NCBI GenBank assembly: GCA_029256645.1
Contig: JAQSXM010000065.1
Location: 1 to 11,474, forward strand
DNA from: Sporomusa sp.
Lineage (GTDB): Bacteria > Bacillota_C > Negativicutes > Sporomusales > Sporomusaceae
DNA: 11,474 bases
Direction of reading: 5' to 3'
The translations under genes and the position numbers were made by a program. Positions 4,560 to 11,474 of the stretch are shown here, one piece after another (the stretch's first letter is position 1; the number at the start of each line of letters is the position of its first letter). Under the pieces are notes generated by a model, which saw only the letters and a list, made by a program, of their open reading frames with translations, ran no database searches and was not told where the DNA came from.

Positions 4560-6611
4560 TCATTTGGTTATGGTTACGAAATAGGTTTCCTCAGTAATAC
4601 CTTCGTACTGTATTTCAATCAATTTCCTTCCGGCGCTGGTAAACGGAATCGGATGGCCTTGCTTTAGTTCAACAAATTTCACGCCATCCGCCGAATAACG
4701 AAACGTGAGTTTATCGGTAATATTTGTTGATTTGTCATCAACACGATTAAGCCCGCGTGTATTATAAACCGCGTTCATTCCGGTGATGTCAAAGTTCTCG
4801 CCAATCTTGAAGGTGGTTTTTGGGGGAAATGCCCCTATTCTAAATCCTGCCGATAAACGAGGTTTAGGCAGCTCATTCTTTTCGATCACAGGGGGCTTTA
4901 CGACCGTCTGACCTGCGGAATCGCCAGTCACGGTGATAAAATATCTTCCCCGAATTTGGACGTCGTCTTTTATTTCAACAATCTTTGTTCCGGCAGTCGT
5001 GAACGGACGGCCTTGGGTCAATTTGACGCCATCCGAGGTATAAAAGCTGCAATTAGCAGAGACATCCGTTATTTTCCCTCCGTCATTAAAATCCTTAAAT
5101 ACCGCCTTAAACCCAGTGCTGTCAAAGCCCTCGCCGACCTTGTAGGTGGTTTTTACGGGATATGACAGTATGCTTACTCTGTGCATGAGCGTGGTCGCCA
5201 CGGTCGGCGTGTTGGAATTTACGCCATGCACCATATAGAAGTTGAACTCGGCATTGTGCGGATAATCGGGGTCATATTTTGCTCTCCATTTGTTTTCACT
5301 ATACCAGGTAATAATGTGGGTACCGTCCTTATTGCTTCGGCCCGCAGCATTCAGGTACTGCTCATAAAAGCCGGGAACTTTTATAGTAGCTGTCTTTGCG
5401 AGGTCGTTCGCTCCGCTATCAATCCACCACAGAAACTCTGCGTCCCGGGTGATCAGGCGGCTGCCATTGGACGGAAGTCCTTCGATAGCGAGATATTTGC
5501 CGCCCTCTGTTTGAATCGTAAACAGCATCATCGGTAAATTAAACGAAGCATTCTTCGGGTCGATGGCCGGGACGGTTTTCTTGTAGTTGACTTTGAAGTT
5601 CTGCATTCTTGTGTTGGAAAGCTCCCCCTTGCCGTCTGCGCCTATGACTACGTGGGGCTGATTGGGATATTTTCCGAGTGCGACATCCATCACAAAAACA
5701 CCTGGGTGCATCAGGGTGACTCCTCGCTGAGCCTCGAACACCTGCCAATACCGCTCCATATCCCAGCATTTGCTGGCGTCGCACAGGATTCTCGCCTGTT
5801 CCATGTTGATTTTCGCGCCCGCGCTCGTGTCGCCGCCAACGGCAAATCTCTGGATGTCGGCCGCGGTGAGCGACCCGCGGTTGCCGTCGTGGAAATACTT
5901 GTCCGTATAGGCCGAGAGCTTGAGGAGGACGTCCGCAAACTCCTCATAGGTCACGCTTCCCGCCGCGTTGAATTCCCCGCCGCTGGGGATGACTCCCATA
6001 CTGGCAAGATAATTCGCAGCCGCGCCTATATTCACGTCGCCGATCTTTTGGTTAAACTTTATGTCGGTGAAGTGCTGTTCTTTGTAAAAGGGCATATCGC
6101 CTTCAAATGGCGCACCGCCGTTCCGAAAGAGCAAGAAGATTATTTCTGCCATGTCCGCACGGGTGATGGGCTTTGTCCAGTCGTTTGCCGCATTCGGCCA
6201 CACGTCCTTCGTGCCGATATAGCCATTGTAGTATGACAGCCGCTCTTTTGCCCAAGAGGAACACACGATGTCCGGCTGGTTTATTTTTGACACTTTTGCC
6301 TGATAAACGTAACAGTCGCGGCCGCCGTACTTCACCTTTAACCATGTGCCATCGCTGGCGGTCGCTGCCAAAACCGTCCCCCAAGGAATTTCGCCCTGAA
6401 TGGGGCCGCCTGGTGACAGGCGATAAGGTACATTCCAGTTGTTCCATATGTCGGGGACGGTAACGCTCGGGTCCGCTTTCGGATCACGTTGATCTACCTT
6501 GTACAGCGTCAGTCCCGCCATTGGCGTCATGCTGCCGGCCGCCAGTGCCGCCGGCAGCAGGGTCAGTACCATGCACAGGGTTAGCAGGATGCTTATAAGT
6601 CGCTTTTTCAT
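4560..6611 (-). CDS. Secreted multidomain protein: SH3-like, S-layer homology, ricin-like and Ig-like (Big_3-type) domains
   Basis: 683 residues from the ATG at 6611, chosen because it follows AAAGGA (6620-6625) and opens a textbook signal peptide (MKKRLISILLTLCMVLTLLPAALA); a longer frame to 6650 adds 13 unlikely residues. Residues ~58-110 read as a bacterial SH3 domain (NVPYRLSPGGPIQGEIPWGT, GTWLKVKYGG). Residues ~120-280 hold three S-layer-homology-like repeats, shown by ITRADMAEIIFLLF, FTDIK...YLASMGVIPSGGEF and KINMEQARIL. Residues ~362-462 look like a ricin-type beta-trefoil (GKYLAIEG, QYLNAAGRSNKDGTHI). Two Ig-like Big_3-type domains follow (~478-562 and ~588-683), each starting KTTYKVGEGFD or KTTFKIGENFD. 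This suggests a cell-surface protein binding peptidoglycan, cell-wall polymer or carbohydrate. The 5' two thirds look visibly richer in GC than the Ig-like 3' end. Precedes the 243-aa exported protein gene. Confidence 0.82.
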   Translation of the reverse strand: MKKRLISILLTLCMVLTLLPAALAAGSMTPMAGLTLYKVDQRDPKADPSVTVPDIWNNWNVPYRLSPGGPIQGEIPWGTVLAATASDGTWLKVKYGGRDCYVYQAKVSKINQPDIVCSSWAKERLSYYNGYIGTKDVWPNAANDWTKPITRADMAEIIFLLFRNGGAPFEGDMPFYKEQHFTDIKFNQKIGDVNIGAAANYLASMGVIPSGGEFNAAGSVTYEEFADVLLKLSAYTDKYFHDGNRGSLTAADIQRFAVGGDTSAGAKINMEQARILCDASKCWDMERYWQVFEAQRGVTLMHPGVFVMDVALGKYPNQPHVVIGADGKGELSNTRMQNFKVNYKKTVPAIDPKNASFNLPMMLFTIQTEGGKYLAIEGLPSNGSRLITRDAEFLWWIDSGANDLAKTATIKVPGFYEQYLNAAGRSNKDGTHIITWYSENKWRAKYDPDYPHNAEFNFYMVHGVNSNTPTVATTLMHRVSILSYPVKTTYKVGEGFDSTGFKAVFKDFNDGGKITDVSANCSFYTSDGVKLTQGRPFTTAGTKIVEIKDDVQIRGRYFITVTGDSAGQTVVKPPVIEKNELPKPRLSAGFRIGAFPPKTTFKIGENFDITGMNAVYNTRGLNRVDDKSTNITDKLTFRYSADGVKFVELKQGHPIPFTSAGRKLIEIQYEGITEETYFVTITK

Positions 6612-6665
6612 TGCTTTGTTCCTTTCATAATTGGATGGTAAATACTGCAATCCATAGATATATTA

Positions 6666-6671
6666 ATTATA
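6666..6671 (-). promoter_or_regulatory. -10 box (TATAAT) of the 683-aa protein gene
   Basis: Perfect TATAAT on the minus strand, conserved with its flanks (TTTAAC before, TAAT after) in the module upstream of the autotransporter gene. A TTGAAC lies 20 bp upstream, too far for a standard -35. Confidence 0.55.
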
Positions 6672-6734
6672 GTTAAATCTTGCGACTGTTAGTTCAACAT
6701 GTGGAAAAATGCAGTTTTTTTGGTGAAATTGGAG

Positions 6735-6771
6735 AAAAAAGAAAAAGAAAAAGCCATGCATGACGCATGGC
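6735..6771 (-). terminator. Intrinsic terminator downstream of the His/Pro-rich protein gene
   Basis: Minus strand: GCCATGC-GTCAT-GCATGGC (7-bp stem, 5-nt loop, 6753-6771) followed by TTTTTCTTTTTC. It lies about 155 bases beyond the stop at 6928 and just upstream of the next promoter, so it separates the two transcription units. Confidence 0.75.
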
Positions 6772-6775
6772 AACT

Positions 6776-6927
6776 AATTGTGATACTATATACGATTAAC
6801 TATTTAGAAGTTTGTAGAAGGATTCCCTGGCTTTTTCTTTATTTGTTCGGCATCCTGCTGCTCATATTACTCGCATTTCGTTTACCAGTAAGCTTCGGTT
6901 ACTCTATTTCTTGGGCTATCTAGGTGG
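6776..6927. other. 3' untranslated stretch of the His/Pro-rich gene
   Basis: About 150 bases between the stop of the His/Pro-rich gene and its terminator. No gene or strong hairpin was recognised. Confidence 0.45.
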
Positions 6928-7434
6928 CTATTGCTGTGGCGGCTGCTGCTTTGGCGGCTGCTGCTTTGGCGGCTGCTGCTTTGGCGGCTGCTGCTTTGGC
7001 GGCTGTTGCTTTGGTGGCTGTTGCTTTGGCGGCTGTTGCTTTGGCGGCTGTTGCTTTGGCGGCTGTTGCTTTGGTGGCTGTTGCTTTGGTGGCTGTTGCT
7101 TTGGCGGCTGTTGCTTTGGTGGCTGTTGCTTTGGTGGCTTCTTATGAGGTGGATGCTCATGAGGTGGATGCCCAGGTGGCTGCTCATGAGGTGGATGCCC
7201 ATGAGGTGGATGCCCATGAGGTGGATGCTTATGAGGTGGATGAGGTGGATGAGGCGGCTCATGGGGCGGCTTATCTCGTAATATGTCCTTTAACTCGCTC
7301 CAAAAATCTAACTGTACAACAGACTGTGTTCCTTCAATATGCAAGGGTGAGGCTTTTACTGTTGTTACTCCGAGACCTAATTGCATAATACCTGCTAATG
7401 AGTAAATCATAATCTGTTTTGTCATTTTGTTCAT
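6928..7434 (-). CDS. Exported His/Pro-rich repeat protein with C-terminal (KQQPP)13 stalk
   Basis: 168 residues from the ATG at 7434, which has GGAGG (7443-7447) at 8-nt spacing; a TTG five codons upstream overlaps that site and is rejected. Residues 1-28 form a signal peptide (MNKMTKQIMIYSLAGIMQLG..., cleavage near VKA-SP). A short unique part (29-54, including VVQLDFWSELKDIL) precedes a His/Pro-rich block (~56-98) built of HPPHGHPPH-like units. Thirteen exact KQQPP units (102-166) and a final QQ complete it. The His block could bind Zn, Ni or Cu; the KQQPP tail should form a stiff, basic polyproline-II rod. There is no LPXTG, lipobox, barrel or membrane anchor. I recognise no named family. 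Transcribed alone: terminators lie before (7596-7628) and after (6735-6771). Confidence 0.72.
   Translation of the reverse strand: MNKMTKQIMIYSLAGIMQLGLGVTTVKASPLHIEGTQSVVQLDFWSELKDILRDKPPHEPPHPPHPPHKHPPHGHPPHGHPPHEQPPGHPPHEHPPHKKPPKQQPPKQQPPKQQPPKQQPPKQQPPKQQPPKQQPPKQQPPKQQPPKQQPPKQQPPKQQPPKQQPPQQ
6937..7131 (-). repeat. 15-bp tandem repeat, 13 units, encoding KQQPP
   Basis: Thirteen head-to-tail units of exactly 15 bp (plus-strand form TGGCGGCTGCTGCTT and variants). All changes between units are third-position silent: the four units nearest the gene's 3' end (6937-6996) are identical, while the nine distal units mix TGG(C/T)GGCTGTTGCTT forms. Unit length is a multiple of three, so copy-number change keeps the frame. 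Confidence 0.95.
7141..7269 (-). repeat. Imperfect His/Pro-encoding repeats (GAGGTGGATGCCCAT-like)
   Basis: Degenerate 15-bp units with 6-, 9- and 12-bp variants on the plus strand, encoding the HPPHGHPPH block upstream of the KQQPP array. More diverged in length and sequence than the downstream array. Confidence 0.75.
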
Positions 7435-7442
7435 AGAATATG

Positions 7443-7447
7443 CCTCC
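7443..7447 (-). promoter_or_regulatory. Shine-Dalgarno that fixes the His/Pro-rich protein start
   Basis: GGAGG on the minus strand, 8 nt before the ATG at 7434. The upstream in-frame TTG (7449) overlaps this site and cannot use it. Confidence 0.7.
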
Positions 7448-7595
7448 AAATTTCATTTTATATTATTTATGCCACGGGACGGTTCTAATGACACACTCTT
7501 GACTATGAAGATTTTTGCCGGTCACCGCACCAGTGCTGTAGGAGTTTTCGATGAAACGCAATCTTGCAAAATAAGCTATTATCATTGAAACAAAA

Positions 7596-7984: not shown

Positions 7985-10900
7985 TTACACTGATGGTAGG
8001 ATTATTTCAACAGCGGTATATGGATCGTAAGTACCGTTTCCGGGGGGAATCGTTGCCGTTACGCTCTGACTGGCATAGCCATCCATGCTCGCGCTAAAGA
8101 CCACTTCGCCGGCCGGAACACCGTCAAATCTTGCATAGCCGTAAGTGTTCGTGGTTTTTGAAGTTCCACCCTCCAGAGTTACCGTAGCGTTGCTGAGAGT
8201 ACTGCCACTGACGTTTTTTACTGTGACCTGGGCTTTACCTAGAGCACGAGGCAATTCAATCACCTGCTCATTAGTGCCTTCGTTGACTGTCACCGCCGAA
8301 TAAATCATGCCTTGGTAATAATATTTGGTTGCGGTATAGGCGTATGTGCCAGTCGGCACGTTAGTTAATGTAAGCTTACCCTCTCCGTCTGTATAACCTA
8401 ATACATTCTTAGGATCAGAGTAACTTACGAAAATTTCCGCTCCGCTGATCGGCTGCTGACTATCTCGGTCTTTAACTATCAAAGTTAGATTGCCGACTTT
8501 GCGAACCATAGTTAGATTAACGGAACTGGTCTCATCGGATAGAACGACAGTCTTACTGTCATTGGTATAATATCCGTCATACTTATACGTTGCGGCAAAA
8601 AGATATTCTCCGGCGGGCAAACTAAAAGTTACATTTCCTGATGCGTCAGTCGTTTTAGTTTGGTCAACGCCATTACCTGTAACGCGCACGTTTGCGTACC
8701 AAGCCACATTTTTCTCATCGCCGTCTTTGACATTAACTTGAGCGGTAATTAGTTTAGGGGAGAGCGTAATAGTTCCCGCTTCCTTGTTGGCACCCAGAAC
8801 TGTTACAGCCGTAGTATTGCTGTCATAACCAGCTTCCGTTGCCGTAAACGTGTATGTTCCGGTCGGTAACTTTGTGAATTTCGCGATACCGCTGGCATTA
8901 GTAGTCTCTGTTACAGGCTTTATTTCATCCCCGATCTCCACCATAGTACTAACAGCTACTCCGCTAATCGGCTTACCATCAGTGCCCTTGACCGTGATTG
9001 TTATTTGGCCCTTCGGGAGGATCAATTCGATGGTTTTACTTGTTGTGTCTTCTATGTTAGTACTTAATTCGCTTCTGCTATATCCTACTTTTGTGACTTT
9101 CAAATTATAGTGGCCTGGCGTTAAATTTTCGAAAATTGCTTTACCGTCGGAGGTGGTATTCGTTGTTGAAATCGTCACTCCCTCCAAAGTCGCGGTAACC
9201 GTTGCTCCGCCAATCGGCTGCTTATCATCATAGTCTATGACCGTGATCGTCACGTTGGCGGTCTGTGGCGCCAGAGGCGTCAGAGCAAGCTCCGCAGCTA
9301 TCGTCTCTTTGTCGGTAACCGTTGTACTGATGCCTTTGTCGCTGTAATTTGCAGCTCTGGCTGTTACGGTATAGTTTGAACCGACTGTCAGGCCGCTGAA
9401 AACGGCTGTGCCATCGCTGCCGGTGGTTTTTGTATCAATAACGGTGGAACCGTTTTTCAGCTCGACTGTAGCGTCTTTTATGGCTGCTTTACCGACTGCG
9501 TCGCTAATCATGGCCACAATGTTGCCGCCGCTGGACGGCAATACGACTGTAGAACTGCTTGTCGAGTCGTTTGCTACGCTTACCGACAAGCTTTTCATCT
9601 CTTTGCCGCTATAGGTAACCGTGAATTTGTAGTTCCCCGGCGGTAAATCCGTAAATGTGGCGATGCCATTTGCACCGGTAACTGCCGTCACTTTGAAACC
9701 GGATGCCGCATAGGCTGTCTTAACTCCGAGAATTCGGTCAAAGAAGCTCTTGTCAGCCGCGCCATGCAGCCCGCTGGTCTCTTCGGCAGTAACTGTCGCG
9801 CCGCCAACGCCTGCCCCGGCGTTATCAAGTACAGTGATTTTCGCTTTGCCGCCGACAACGGCTAAGGCAATGGGGGGGACGGTCGTCGTTTGATCTTTTT
9901 GCACTGTCACCGTCGGGCTATCGTCGCTGATGTTGAAATAGGTGGCGCGCACGGTATACTCTCCTGCAGCCAGGCCGCTTAGCTCCGCTTTGCCATTTAC
10001 ATCGGTTACCACTATCGCACCGACCGGGCTGCCATTTTGATACGCTTGCACTTGCGCGCCTTGCAGGTCTGCGCCGCTGCTGGTTACTGTTACGCTTAAG
10101 CTGCCGGTGTAAGCGACTAGTTTAGTAAAGGTTTCGGTCTTGATTTCATTTTCCCGTTGCACCTTTTGCAACAGCTTATGACTGATATCGTTGGACAGTT
10201 CTTTGGCACTGCCGCCGCGCAAGGCCGGCCCCGCCGTATCGGCCAGTTGGTAGAGGACTTTGCCGTAGAGACTGCCGCTGGTCAGGTTAGAATTGGTGTA
10301 GCCCATTTCCATGGACAGCCTGGGGGTAAGCTGCATTTTACTGCGCAGTCTGTAGCCATTTTCATCCTCTTTGTATTTGTTGTCATAGTGAAAGCCTGAG
10401 GCATAAAGACTGAGCCAGGGAGCATTCGCTAGCGATGTGCCCACTTCATAGTCAAAGCCGCTCACCGCCCGGATGTAGGAATACAATATTCCATCGGTAA
10501 GGACGGTTGCTCCGGTTTGCCTGTCGCCTGAAGTCGGGATGTAGAAGTTGGCCCGGTATTCCGCTTGCTTGTTGAAGTATTCTGCGCCGACTCCGACACG
10601 GGAAAGATCGTGTTTGAAGCCATAGTCATAAAAAGCATTGACACCTGTGAGGCTGGTTTTATCTTCAGACAGCCATCTTAAACCTATGCCAAGATTGGCT
10701 GTGCTGTTTGCCCCGCTTTGATAGGCGTAGCGTCCTTGCCAGAAGCCAAGCTTACCGTCTGTAACTTCCTTGGTAAAAGGCTGGAGGGTCTCCAGCGAGT
10801 ATATCGGTTTGAGATCCTCGGTAAACGTAAGATTGATATCAGTCGTCCGCAGCCATTCTGGTCCTTGCTGCTTGCCATTTTGCGCGTAATAAGGGATAAG
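7985..10900 (-). pseudogene. Autotransporter barrel and passenger segment without its own start
   Basis: An open frame of 971 codons between the TAG (10901-10903) and the TAA (7985-7987). The first in-frame start-type codon is a TTG at 10486, which lacks a Shine-Dalgarno and lies in the middle of the barrel, so it would lose half the barrel and the signal peptide; it is not accepted as a gene start. The segment is otherwise intact over 2.9 kb, which is the main sign that the damage is recent or tolerated. Confidence 0.72.
7988..10105 (-). repeat. Eight tandem Ig-like / carboxypeptidase-regulatory passenger domains
   Basis: Each domain follows the same plan: a first strand such as ITVKGTDG or VTVKNVSG, then I/L-S-G-A-T-V, a T-T-x-x-x-G-x-A-x-F turn, L-P-A/T-G-x-Y, a T/S-A-x-x-x-G-Y strand and a final VTV...I-x-L strand. 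Domain cores include LSGLAAGEYTV, FTDLPPGNYKF, FSGLTVGSNYTV, FENLTPGHYNL, FTKLPTGTYTF, FSLPAGEYLF, LTNVPTGTYAY and FDGVPAGEVVF. Domains are diverged at protein and DNA level, so this is an old array. The second carries an insert of about 25 residues (near 9700-9790). Confidence 0.8.
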
Positions 10901-11146
10901 CTAATTGACAAATTGGACCACCTTCTGCTGCGTTGTTAAATTAGCCGTGTCCGCATTCTGCTTATTTTGGGACTGATCTTCTACCTGTTTATCTAGTGTA
11001 ATTGCCGGCAGTTCGCTAGTCTGCTCGCTGGTATTTGCGCTGGCGGCTGCGTACACCGGGACTAGCGCCACCGTATTGGACATCAGCAACAGTGCCGTCA
11101 GAAAACAAGCCAGCAGCTTGTTCAGTCGTTTAGAAATAGTAAACAA
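10901..11146 (-). CDS. N-terminal fragment of the autotransporter: signal peptide and linker, ending at TAG
   Basis: 81 residues that would actually be made if the amber codon stops translation: MFTISKRLNKLLACFLTALLL signal sequence, cleavage after VYA, then a hydrophilic linker rich in Gln, Asn and Thr ending KVVQFVN. It has the gene's only good Shine-Dalgarno. The usual periplasmic LysM domain of many intimin-type proteins is not present. By itself it would release a short periplasmic peptide of about 48 residues with no known function; it is best read as the 5' part of the broken gene. Confidence 0.7.
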   Translation of the reverse strand: MFTISKRLNKLLACFLTALLLMSNTVALVPVYAAASANTSEQTSELPAITLDKQVEDQSQNKQNADTANLTTQQKVVQFVN

Positions 11147-11153
11147 AGTCACT

Positions 11154-11160: not shown

Positions 11161-11235
11161 ATTTTCTTCCACAATAACTGCTTTTTCATGGATACAGCGC
11201 CCCTTTTGATTGAAGCACTGCAATCTGTAATAGTA

Positions 11236-11241
11236 ATTATA
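11236..11241 (-). promoter_or_regulatory. -10 box (TATAAT) of the autotransporter gene
   Basis: Perfect TATAAT on the minus strand, conserved with copy A. The hexamer 17 bp upstream (AATTAA) is not a good -35. Confidence 0.55.
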
Positions 11242-11310
11242 GCTAAATTTTGCAGCTATTAATTCCGTATGGGGAAAAATGCAGATTTTTAGGTGAAATT
11301 GGCGAAATAA

Positions 11311-11342
11311 CAGAAAGAAAAAAGCCATGCACGATGCATGGC
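11311..11342 (-). terminator. Intrinsic terminator upstream of the autotransporter promoter
   Basis: Minus strand: GCCATGC-ATCGT-GCATGGC (7-bp stem, 5-nt loop, 11324-11342) followed by TTTTTTCTTTC. Identical stem to the one at 6753-6771. It would end transcripts entering from beyond the right edge. Confidence 0.72.
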
Positions 11343-11373
11343 AACTGACTACTAACTATTGACCAAGGTAATA

Positions 11374-11474
11374 GCAGAGCCTCTGCGTCCACTTCCCGTT
11401 CCTCGTACTCCGTTCCCCTGCCCCGTTGCGGGAGGGAGACGGGCCGCAGGCCGGGGGAGGGGCGGCTTCCGTTA
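11374..11474. other. GC-rich palindromic non-coding stretch at the right edge
   Basis: Strikingly G/C-rich compared with the AT-rich flank before it. Holds GCAGAG-C-CTCTGC (11374-11386), GGCC-GCA-GGCC (11442-11452) and facing arms CCCCTGCCCC (11415-11424) and GGGGGAGGGG (11453-11462, one mismatch). No coding frame recognised. It runs off the window. Confidence 0.5.

Follow-up and report, generated by a model that had tools for sequence, protein, structure and literature searches.

A module of about 130 bp, present twice in the 11,474-nucleotide stretch of Sporomusa sp. DNA analysed here (the window), is best explained as a LytTR operator joined to a weak sigma-70 promoter, which would have reached adhesin-type genes through copying, as a cassette, of the 3' flank of a response regulator (RR) gene. 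Judging from sequence comparisons, we put the probability of this reading at roughly 0.8.

Two copies of the module in the window

Both copies lie on the minus strand, and blastn aligns 6775-6644 with 11346-11217 at 81.2% over 133 columns (E ~1e-29), which confirms the duplicated terminator-plus-promoter module proposed in an earlier sequence-only reading of this DNA. A repeat scan of the window paired 6660-6752 with 11230-11322 (ungapped, 82% of 93) and 6743-6775 with 11314-11346 (88% of 33). The order of elements is the same in the two copies: each begins with a hairpin and its T-run; a conserved ~32-bp block comes next and is separated by a gap from TATAAT, behind which lie a leader and a gene for a secreted protein. 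The GCCATGC stem said to be common to the two terminators is present in both, in terminator-like minus-strand hairpins of 8 pairs each (6771-6753 and 11342-11324) that top the 16 listed in the window (shuffles: mean 11.8). The genes behind the copies were described as sharing no coding similarity, and this holds at the DNA level, where no similarity is significant (best piece 18 bases, E 0.019). The features are as follows.

4560..6611, minus strand: gene behind copy 1 for a secreted-looking protein, ~683 aa from the ATG at 6611
6666..6671, minus strand: TATAAT, the -10 of copy 1; repeat 1 starts 62 bp away (site list)
6687..6692, minus strand: weak -35-like CTAACA of copy 1, spacer 15 to the -10 (-35 scoring)
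6704..6712, minus strand: direct repeat 2 of copy 1, GCATTTTTC, offset from repeat 1 by 21 bp (site and offset comparison)
6725..6733, minus strand: direct repeat 1 of copy 1, TCCAATTTC, putative LytTR half-site (site and offset comparison)
6753..6771, minus strand: terminator hairpin of copy 1, GCCATGC...GCATGGC and then a T-run (hairpin scan; same place behind RR genes in relatives)
6799..6849, minus strand: fossil 3' end of a LytTR RR gene, RTNKEKARESFYKLLNS, then the stop TAA at 6798-6796 (tblastn)
7985..11152, minus strand: gene for the inverse autotransporter that follows copy 2, interrupted in frame by a single TAG at 10903-10901
11236..11241, minus strand: TATAAT, the -10 of copy 2; repeat 1 starts 62 bp away (site list)
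11257..11262, minus strand: weak -35-like TTAATA of copy 2, spacer 15 (-35 scoring)
11274..11282, minus strand: direct repeat 2 of copy 2, GCATTTTTC (site and offset comparison)
11295..11303, minus strand: direct repeat 1 of copy 2, GCCAATTTC (site and offset comparison)
11324..11342, minus strand: terminator hairpin of copy 2 (hairpin scan)
11356..11363, minus strand: eight bases GTCAATAG that match the final codons plus stop codon of the RR gene in genome G001, a tentative remnant (by eye; too short for significance)

The protein behind copy 1 had been called an SH3/SLH/Ig protein, a label that gains little from the searches: no Pfam family was found at E <= 0.001, only RicinB_lectin_2 (0.069) and Big_3 (0.96) appeared at E <= 1, and "SLH domain-containing" is the UniRef name of a relative, P0001. 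The inverse autotransporter was correctly named in that reading: it shares 65% and 67% identity with two relatives, and IAT_beta was found in the one of them (from G023) that was scanned against Pfam. The TAG at 10903-10901 falls early in the window gene, and the frame is open at that place in G001 and G023. The closest relative found for the window is G001 (locus L001), a Negativicutes metagenome assembly whose protein of the same 684-aa family is 83% identical to that of copy 1.

Other contents of the window were noted in passing. Positions 6928-7449 (minus strand) encode a 173-aa secreted-looking protein, mostly PPKQQ and PPHxH repeats, where G023 has kinase and RR genes. A GC-rich stretch, 11347-11474, stands above copy 2 at the place where G001 has its RR gene; blastn gave no match to it in the relatives' loci compared. 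A plasmid search with a 7-kb stretch and a phage search with the 684-aa protein returned no match, and in viral contigs the profile of that protein gave 47 candidate stretches, none confirmed, and the block pattern 0 matches.

Association with a LytTR response regulator gene

The module was found, with a 108-bp query, in 5 of 100 relatives of G001, and 14 copies are known in all: 2 in the window and 12 in relatives (G001 3, G023 2, G036 3, G055 3 and G072 1). No more than 3 were found per genome, and 10 of the 12 in relatives are at most 10 kb from the RR gene; the three of G036 all lie inside 7 kb of a 4.96-Mb contig. Each of the five relatives has one copy directly behind a LytTR RR gene, which is divergent from a histidine kinase gene. 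The RR stop is 34-60 nt above the block in these genomes and a GCCATGC-type hairpin stands in between, so that the shared terminator is the RR gene's own. The terminator is also missing from 5 of the 14 copies, and the description of the module as an "insulated" cassette is therefore not upheld.

Of the 100 relatives, the 5 with the module, and no others, have orthologs of this RR (89-100% identical). In domain make-up the regulator is an unremarkable LytTR response regulator. The G036 protein scores 59.9 bits for PF00072 Response_reg (cut-off 30.2) and 63.5 for PF04397 LytTR (cut-off 22.6), and among solved chains covering almost all of the RR, ComE (4cbv) scores best. A wider search of 399 relatives (E <= 1e-55, with the best six first-look candidates per genome scored) gave 12 RR loci in 11 genomes; compared with the G036 query, five are 89-100% identical (group A) and seven 51-62% (group B), and all 12 homologs align over both the receiver and the LytTR domains. 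An RR 59% identical to that of G001 (P0065) is also known from a Pelosinus strain. The block is present at 12 of these 12 loci and lies directly behind the RR gene at 11; at the remaining one, L049, it precedes two neighbouring genes of the locus.

The G036 kinase matches HATPase_c_5/GHKL in Pfam at 72.3 bits, and the kinase of G023 is matched at 86-91% identity by those of the other 4 group-A loci, which are likewise divergent from the RR. By eye, the group-B kinase is divergent from the RR in L050, L051, L053 and L087, elsewhere in the locus in L052 and ~10 kb off in G136 (L097); none was seen in the 10-kb contig of L049. Pattern scans found no block in the region between the divergent RR and kinase genes, which gives no indication of autoregulation.

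The targets of the module are mostly, but not only, surface or secreted proteins. Inverse autotransporters follow window copy 2 and copies G001a and G023b; members of the 684-aa family follow window copy 1 and G001b; a gene with a similar signal peptide follows G001c. A two-partner exoprotein with a ShlB-type transporter is found behind G055b, a ~885-aa protein without a Pfam match behind the G072 copy and G036b, and a 246-aa protein, whose ortholog is window 4507-3767, behind G023a. Decayed remains follow G036a, including a piece like the 684-aa family, and G055a, a copy cut inside its -10. The earlier idea of a cassette for surface proteins is thus right for most targets and too narrow for the rest, as a LuxR-type and PAS-GGDEF pair follows G055c and, by eye, an apparent fragment of a GGDEF gene like that of G055c follows G036c.

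The window has no intact RR or kinase gene. The fossil in front of copy 1 is nevertheless recognizable, with 15 of 17 residues identical to the end of the G036 RR (tblastn, E 2e-5); it comprises the last 17 codons, at the place where the intact RR ends in relatives. The gene order is autotransporter, kinase/RR, module and 246-aa gene in G023, and autotransporter, RR fossil, module, 684-aa gene and 246-aa gene in the window, a comparison which suggests that the kinase-RR pair was lost at this place. A further, complete cassette occurs in G039 (L095 1380-1700), with a hairpin, a block with 3 mismatches and TATAAT at 63 by a count made by eye, before a gene for a ShlB-type two-partner-secretion transporter. 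No RR of this group was found in G039, the best LytTR-type match being 30% identical over part of the RR; either the cassette is an orphan or the assembly has a gap.

Direct repeats, spacing and known LytTR sites

The block contains two direct repeats of ~9 bp with 12 bp between them, which gives a period of 21. Its sequence is GCCAATTTCACCAAAAAACCTGCATTTTTCC in group A and approximately GTCAATTTTCCTTAAAAACCTGCNAGTTTTCC at the same place in group B. The comparison is based on a list of 27 sites, 14 of group A and 13 of group B. For group B, 13 of 18 distinct matches were kept; the five dropped (L049 5752, L050 3096, L086 8060, L087 11262 and L087 2120) have 6-7 mismatches, and four lie inside long reading frames, L087 2120 being in a gap between frames. 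Three weak sites, L052 3235 (6 mismatches), L087 9364 (6) and L086 9869 (7), were retained because they stand before an RR-locus gene with a -10 near 62. The group-B sites G052:C225, G136:C51:23479 and G080:C3:45113 are outside the 27, as are the additional scattered matches that a looser group-A pattern gives in group-B loci.

Among offsets 8-29, offset 21 is the best in group B and in both groups combined; in group A it ranks third, behind two registers of offset 9 (6.69 of 9 versus 6.31). The offset-21 value was reached in 0.3% (A), 0 (B) and 0 (A+B) of 1000 column permutations, and for group A alone a match as good appeared at some offset in 5.5% of them. This set had 13 of the 14 group-A copies, L033 being left out for a one-base insertion; a run with all 14 gave 2% of 500 permutations for offsets 21-22. 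The T-run of the repeats ends in C at position 9 in group A (14/14 for repeat 1, 13/14 for repeat 2) and at position 10 in group B (13/13 and 11/13). Both half-sites may have moved together between the groups; as a single change, this is only suggestive.

The distance to the -10 is nearly fixed. An exact TATAAT is present in 19 of the 27 sites, 62 bp from the first base of repeat 1 in 14 and 63 bp in 5. The other 8 have a weaker -10 or none, exact TATAAT being absent from 6 of 13 group-B and 2 of 14 group-A sites; in group B the block is mostly 62-64 bp from the -10. Ties were broken towards 62, which hardly affects the exact TATAATs. The best -10 is at 72 in L087 11590, and L032 6692 has none, its -10 being cut off.

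Passages of two papers give a picture of published LytTR sites: a pair of repeats, each 9-11 nt long and separated by 11-13 nt (PMC4847170), or 9-bp repeats, mostly 12 bp apart, located 4-11 bp above the -35 in Streptococcus mutans and most often 10 bp above it in other species (PMC6193735). The module repeats agree with these descriptions in geometry (9 bp, 12 between, period 21, with offset 9 higher in group A) and also in position, ending 9-11 bp above the -35 slot (distance 62, spacers 15-17) against the published 4-11, with the -35 itself weak. Contrary to the earlier proposal, the block consequently does not replace the -35.

In the passages of PMC4847170, the site of E. coli YpdB at yhjX is alike in that two direct repeats 21 bp apart lie above a promoter and go with a two-component RR, and in both cases the half-sites are T-rich (GGCATTTCAT for YpdB; GCCAATTTC and GCATTTTTC in the window module). 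The two systems differ in the kinase, LytS-type for YpdB and GHKL for the module RR, as well as in targets, gene order and half-site sequence. Similarly, HdrRM/BrsRM, the LytTR Regulatory Systems (LRS) of S. mutans, have 9-bp repeats with 12 bp between, near above the -35, but are described there with a membrane inhibitor partner and a self-regulating operon (PMC6193735), whereas in the module system the RR carries a receiver domain and has a kinase partner, and no site was found before the RR gene. Because of that receiver domain and kinase the module system is not an LRS; the sites found lie either behind the RR gene or in front of other genes.

Competing explanations and the proposed circuit

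The block might be bound by some other activator, or be a contact for RNA polymerase of the UP-element kind, with the RR gene a mere neighbour. Its A/T-richness, its place just above the -35 and the G039 cassette without this RR would fit such an arrangement. A general element should be common, however, and the block is rare. In 100 genomes the group-A pattern has 9 sites without mismatch, all of them module copies in the five genomes; with one mismatch, another 2 module copies join them, together with 2 sites outside the module, in G045 and G098. The latter, both inside long reading frames, are the only sites at 0-1 mismatch in the 95 genomes outside the five, and the other 11 are all module copies. 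Occurrence genome-wide before ordinary genes, named in the sequence-only reading as the outcome that would speak against it, thus failed to appear.

With 2 mismatches matches become scattered, and 39 of the 100 genomes have some match; the group-A pattern has 66 sites, 12 of which are module copies, but the reversed control has 27 as well, so that matches at this level are mostly due to chance. The group-B pattern has 8 sites in 399 genomes at up to 2 mismatches, in 5 of the 6 genomes with a group-B RR and none in the other 393; at 3 mismatches it reaches all 6 and five others (G027, G057, G067, G072 and G039), and its reversed control gave 0 sites. A conserved intergenic stretch that resembles the block at 3 mismatches, GACAATTTTCCCTAAAACCCTGCG, recurs between two other genes in four genomes (G027:C1:4286307, G057:C1:4129736, G067:C30:21406 and G072:C88:1510). 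The 21-bp direct repeat and the tight co-occurrence with the RR also weigh against a different binder, which we regard as unlikely. The relatives compared are not independent samples, and as the RR is physically linked to most sites, shared descent of the cassette explains part of that co-occurrence.

Alternatively, the block might have no function, and the copies might be alike only because duplication of the RR gene's end carried them along. Duplication did take place: the terminator and the RR fossil came along with window copy 1, and this copy, G001b and G001c have the leader and signal peptide in common too. The pattern of conservation is not what duplication by itself leads one to expect. 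In the 14 copies high conservation is confined to ~78 columns that end at the -10, with differing flanks and intermediate values in the hairpin columns (0.93-1.04 bits). The ten columns with most of TATAAT have a mean of 1.41 bits, the next two tens 0.44 and 0.43, and any later rise in information is limited to end columns that are full of gaps and represented in few copies. As conservation stops right behind the -10, GATTGCAGT, which had been counted as part of the module and is indeed common to the window pair and close copies, falls outside the conserved core. Furthermore, the five group-A copies that lack the terminator still have the block. Group B, whose RRs are only 51-62% identical, keeps the block and nearly its -10 distance, a result by which duplication alone is already strained; we consider it improbable. 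The earlier alternatives, that the module was copied or is under constraint, turn out to hold jointly, as seen in the 14 copies and in conservation and near-fixed spacing across two diverged RR groups.

Another earlier proposal, an alternative sigma factor for which the block would serve as the -35, is very doubtful. Group A has no proper -35 at spacers 16-18, where the best hexamers match only 1-3 of 6 positions (13 of 14 copies scored, L032 6692 being left out), and TTAACA-like hexamers (4-5 of 6) are found instead at spacer 15 in 9 of 13. But the block ends ~31 bp above the -10, too far for contact by sigma at the -35, the -10 is the exact TATAAT in the 19 sites mentioned, and 5 of the 6 group-B sites without it have TTGATA at spacer 16-18; the module is probably not such a promoter. 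A strong -10 with a poor -35 in group A is rather what an activator-dependent sigma-70 promoter looks like. It is hardly credible that the module is a mobile repeat or a transcribed leader RNA such as an attenuator or riboswitch, to which a hairpin with a T-run in several copies might point, since conservation lies upstream of the -10 and ends there, placing the signal in the promoter and not in the transcript, copies are few and mostly near the RR gene, and an Rfam scan found nothing in the module. The five matches listed by that scan are elsewhere and all below the gathering score; no covariance model of a known RNA family matched the module above it.

The reading preferred here is therefore that of a LytTR operator with a weak sigma-70 promoter, and the block stands as a candidate activator site, as first proposed, on account of the 21-bp direct repeat, the co-occurrence with the RR and the weak -35. 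The module would represent the 3' flank of the RR gene, with the RR terminator, the operator and a sigma-70 promoter whose -10 is good and whose -35 is poor. The GHKL kinase, as the presumed sensor, would when active phosphorylate the RR, and an RR dimer would bind the repeats just above the -35 slot and recruit RNA polymerase, thereby activating rather than repressing genes for secreted and outer-membrane proteins (inverse autotransporter, two-partner exoprotein, 684-aa family). Genes would enter the regulon by receiving a copy of the cassette, which would spread in this way; in the window, copy 1 would have stayed behind the remains of the RR gene, and copy 2 would have arrived with the same terminator. 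A surface or cell-density cue as the signal is a guess from the class of the kinase.

Several well-known systems are built along these lines. AgrCA and VirSR have a LytTR RR (AgrA and VirR), like the module system, and the kinases of ComDE, AgrCA and VirSR belong to the GHKL-type class. The module system resembles these three in its LytTR RR, its GHKL-type kinase and a small regulon of secreted or surface functions, and differs from them in the divergent arrangement of its group-A RR and kinase genes and in its targets, which lie behind the RR terminator and include outer-membrane secretion systems of diderm Firmicutes; no gene for a peptide signal happened to be noticed.

The analysis yields a candidate regulator, an exact putative operator and a short list of targets, which comprises the inverse autotransporter, two-partner secretion and further secreted proteins. 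The literature matches listed for LytTR in Negativicutes and in four of their genera, and for response regulators and autotransporters in diderm Firmicutes, showed no account of a comparable circuit in these bacteria. A broader view, for which we see even odds, is that the RR 3' flank may be a portable cassette of terminator, operator and promoter that recruits genes to a regulon, is copied to linked and unlinked surface genes and can outlive its regulator, as in the window and perhaps G039, so that diderm Firmicutes could rewire adhesin expression with one 130-bp piece.

Two further observations concern homologs of the 684-aa protein. In Clostridium sp. BSD9I1 (L002, 9095-10001), such a homolog is divergent from LytTR RR and kinase genes whose products are ~27-30% identical to those of the group, and the intergenic region has a repeat, TGATTCATG/TGTTTCATG, 21 bp apart, of a kind that by rough reckoning is not rare by chance. 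Another homolog, P0005, and an RR homolog with 67% identity, P0039, both have 17329 as their longest contig, and thus probably come from one common contig.
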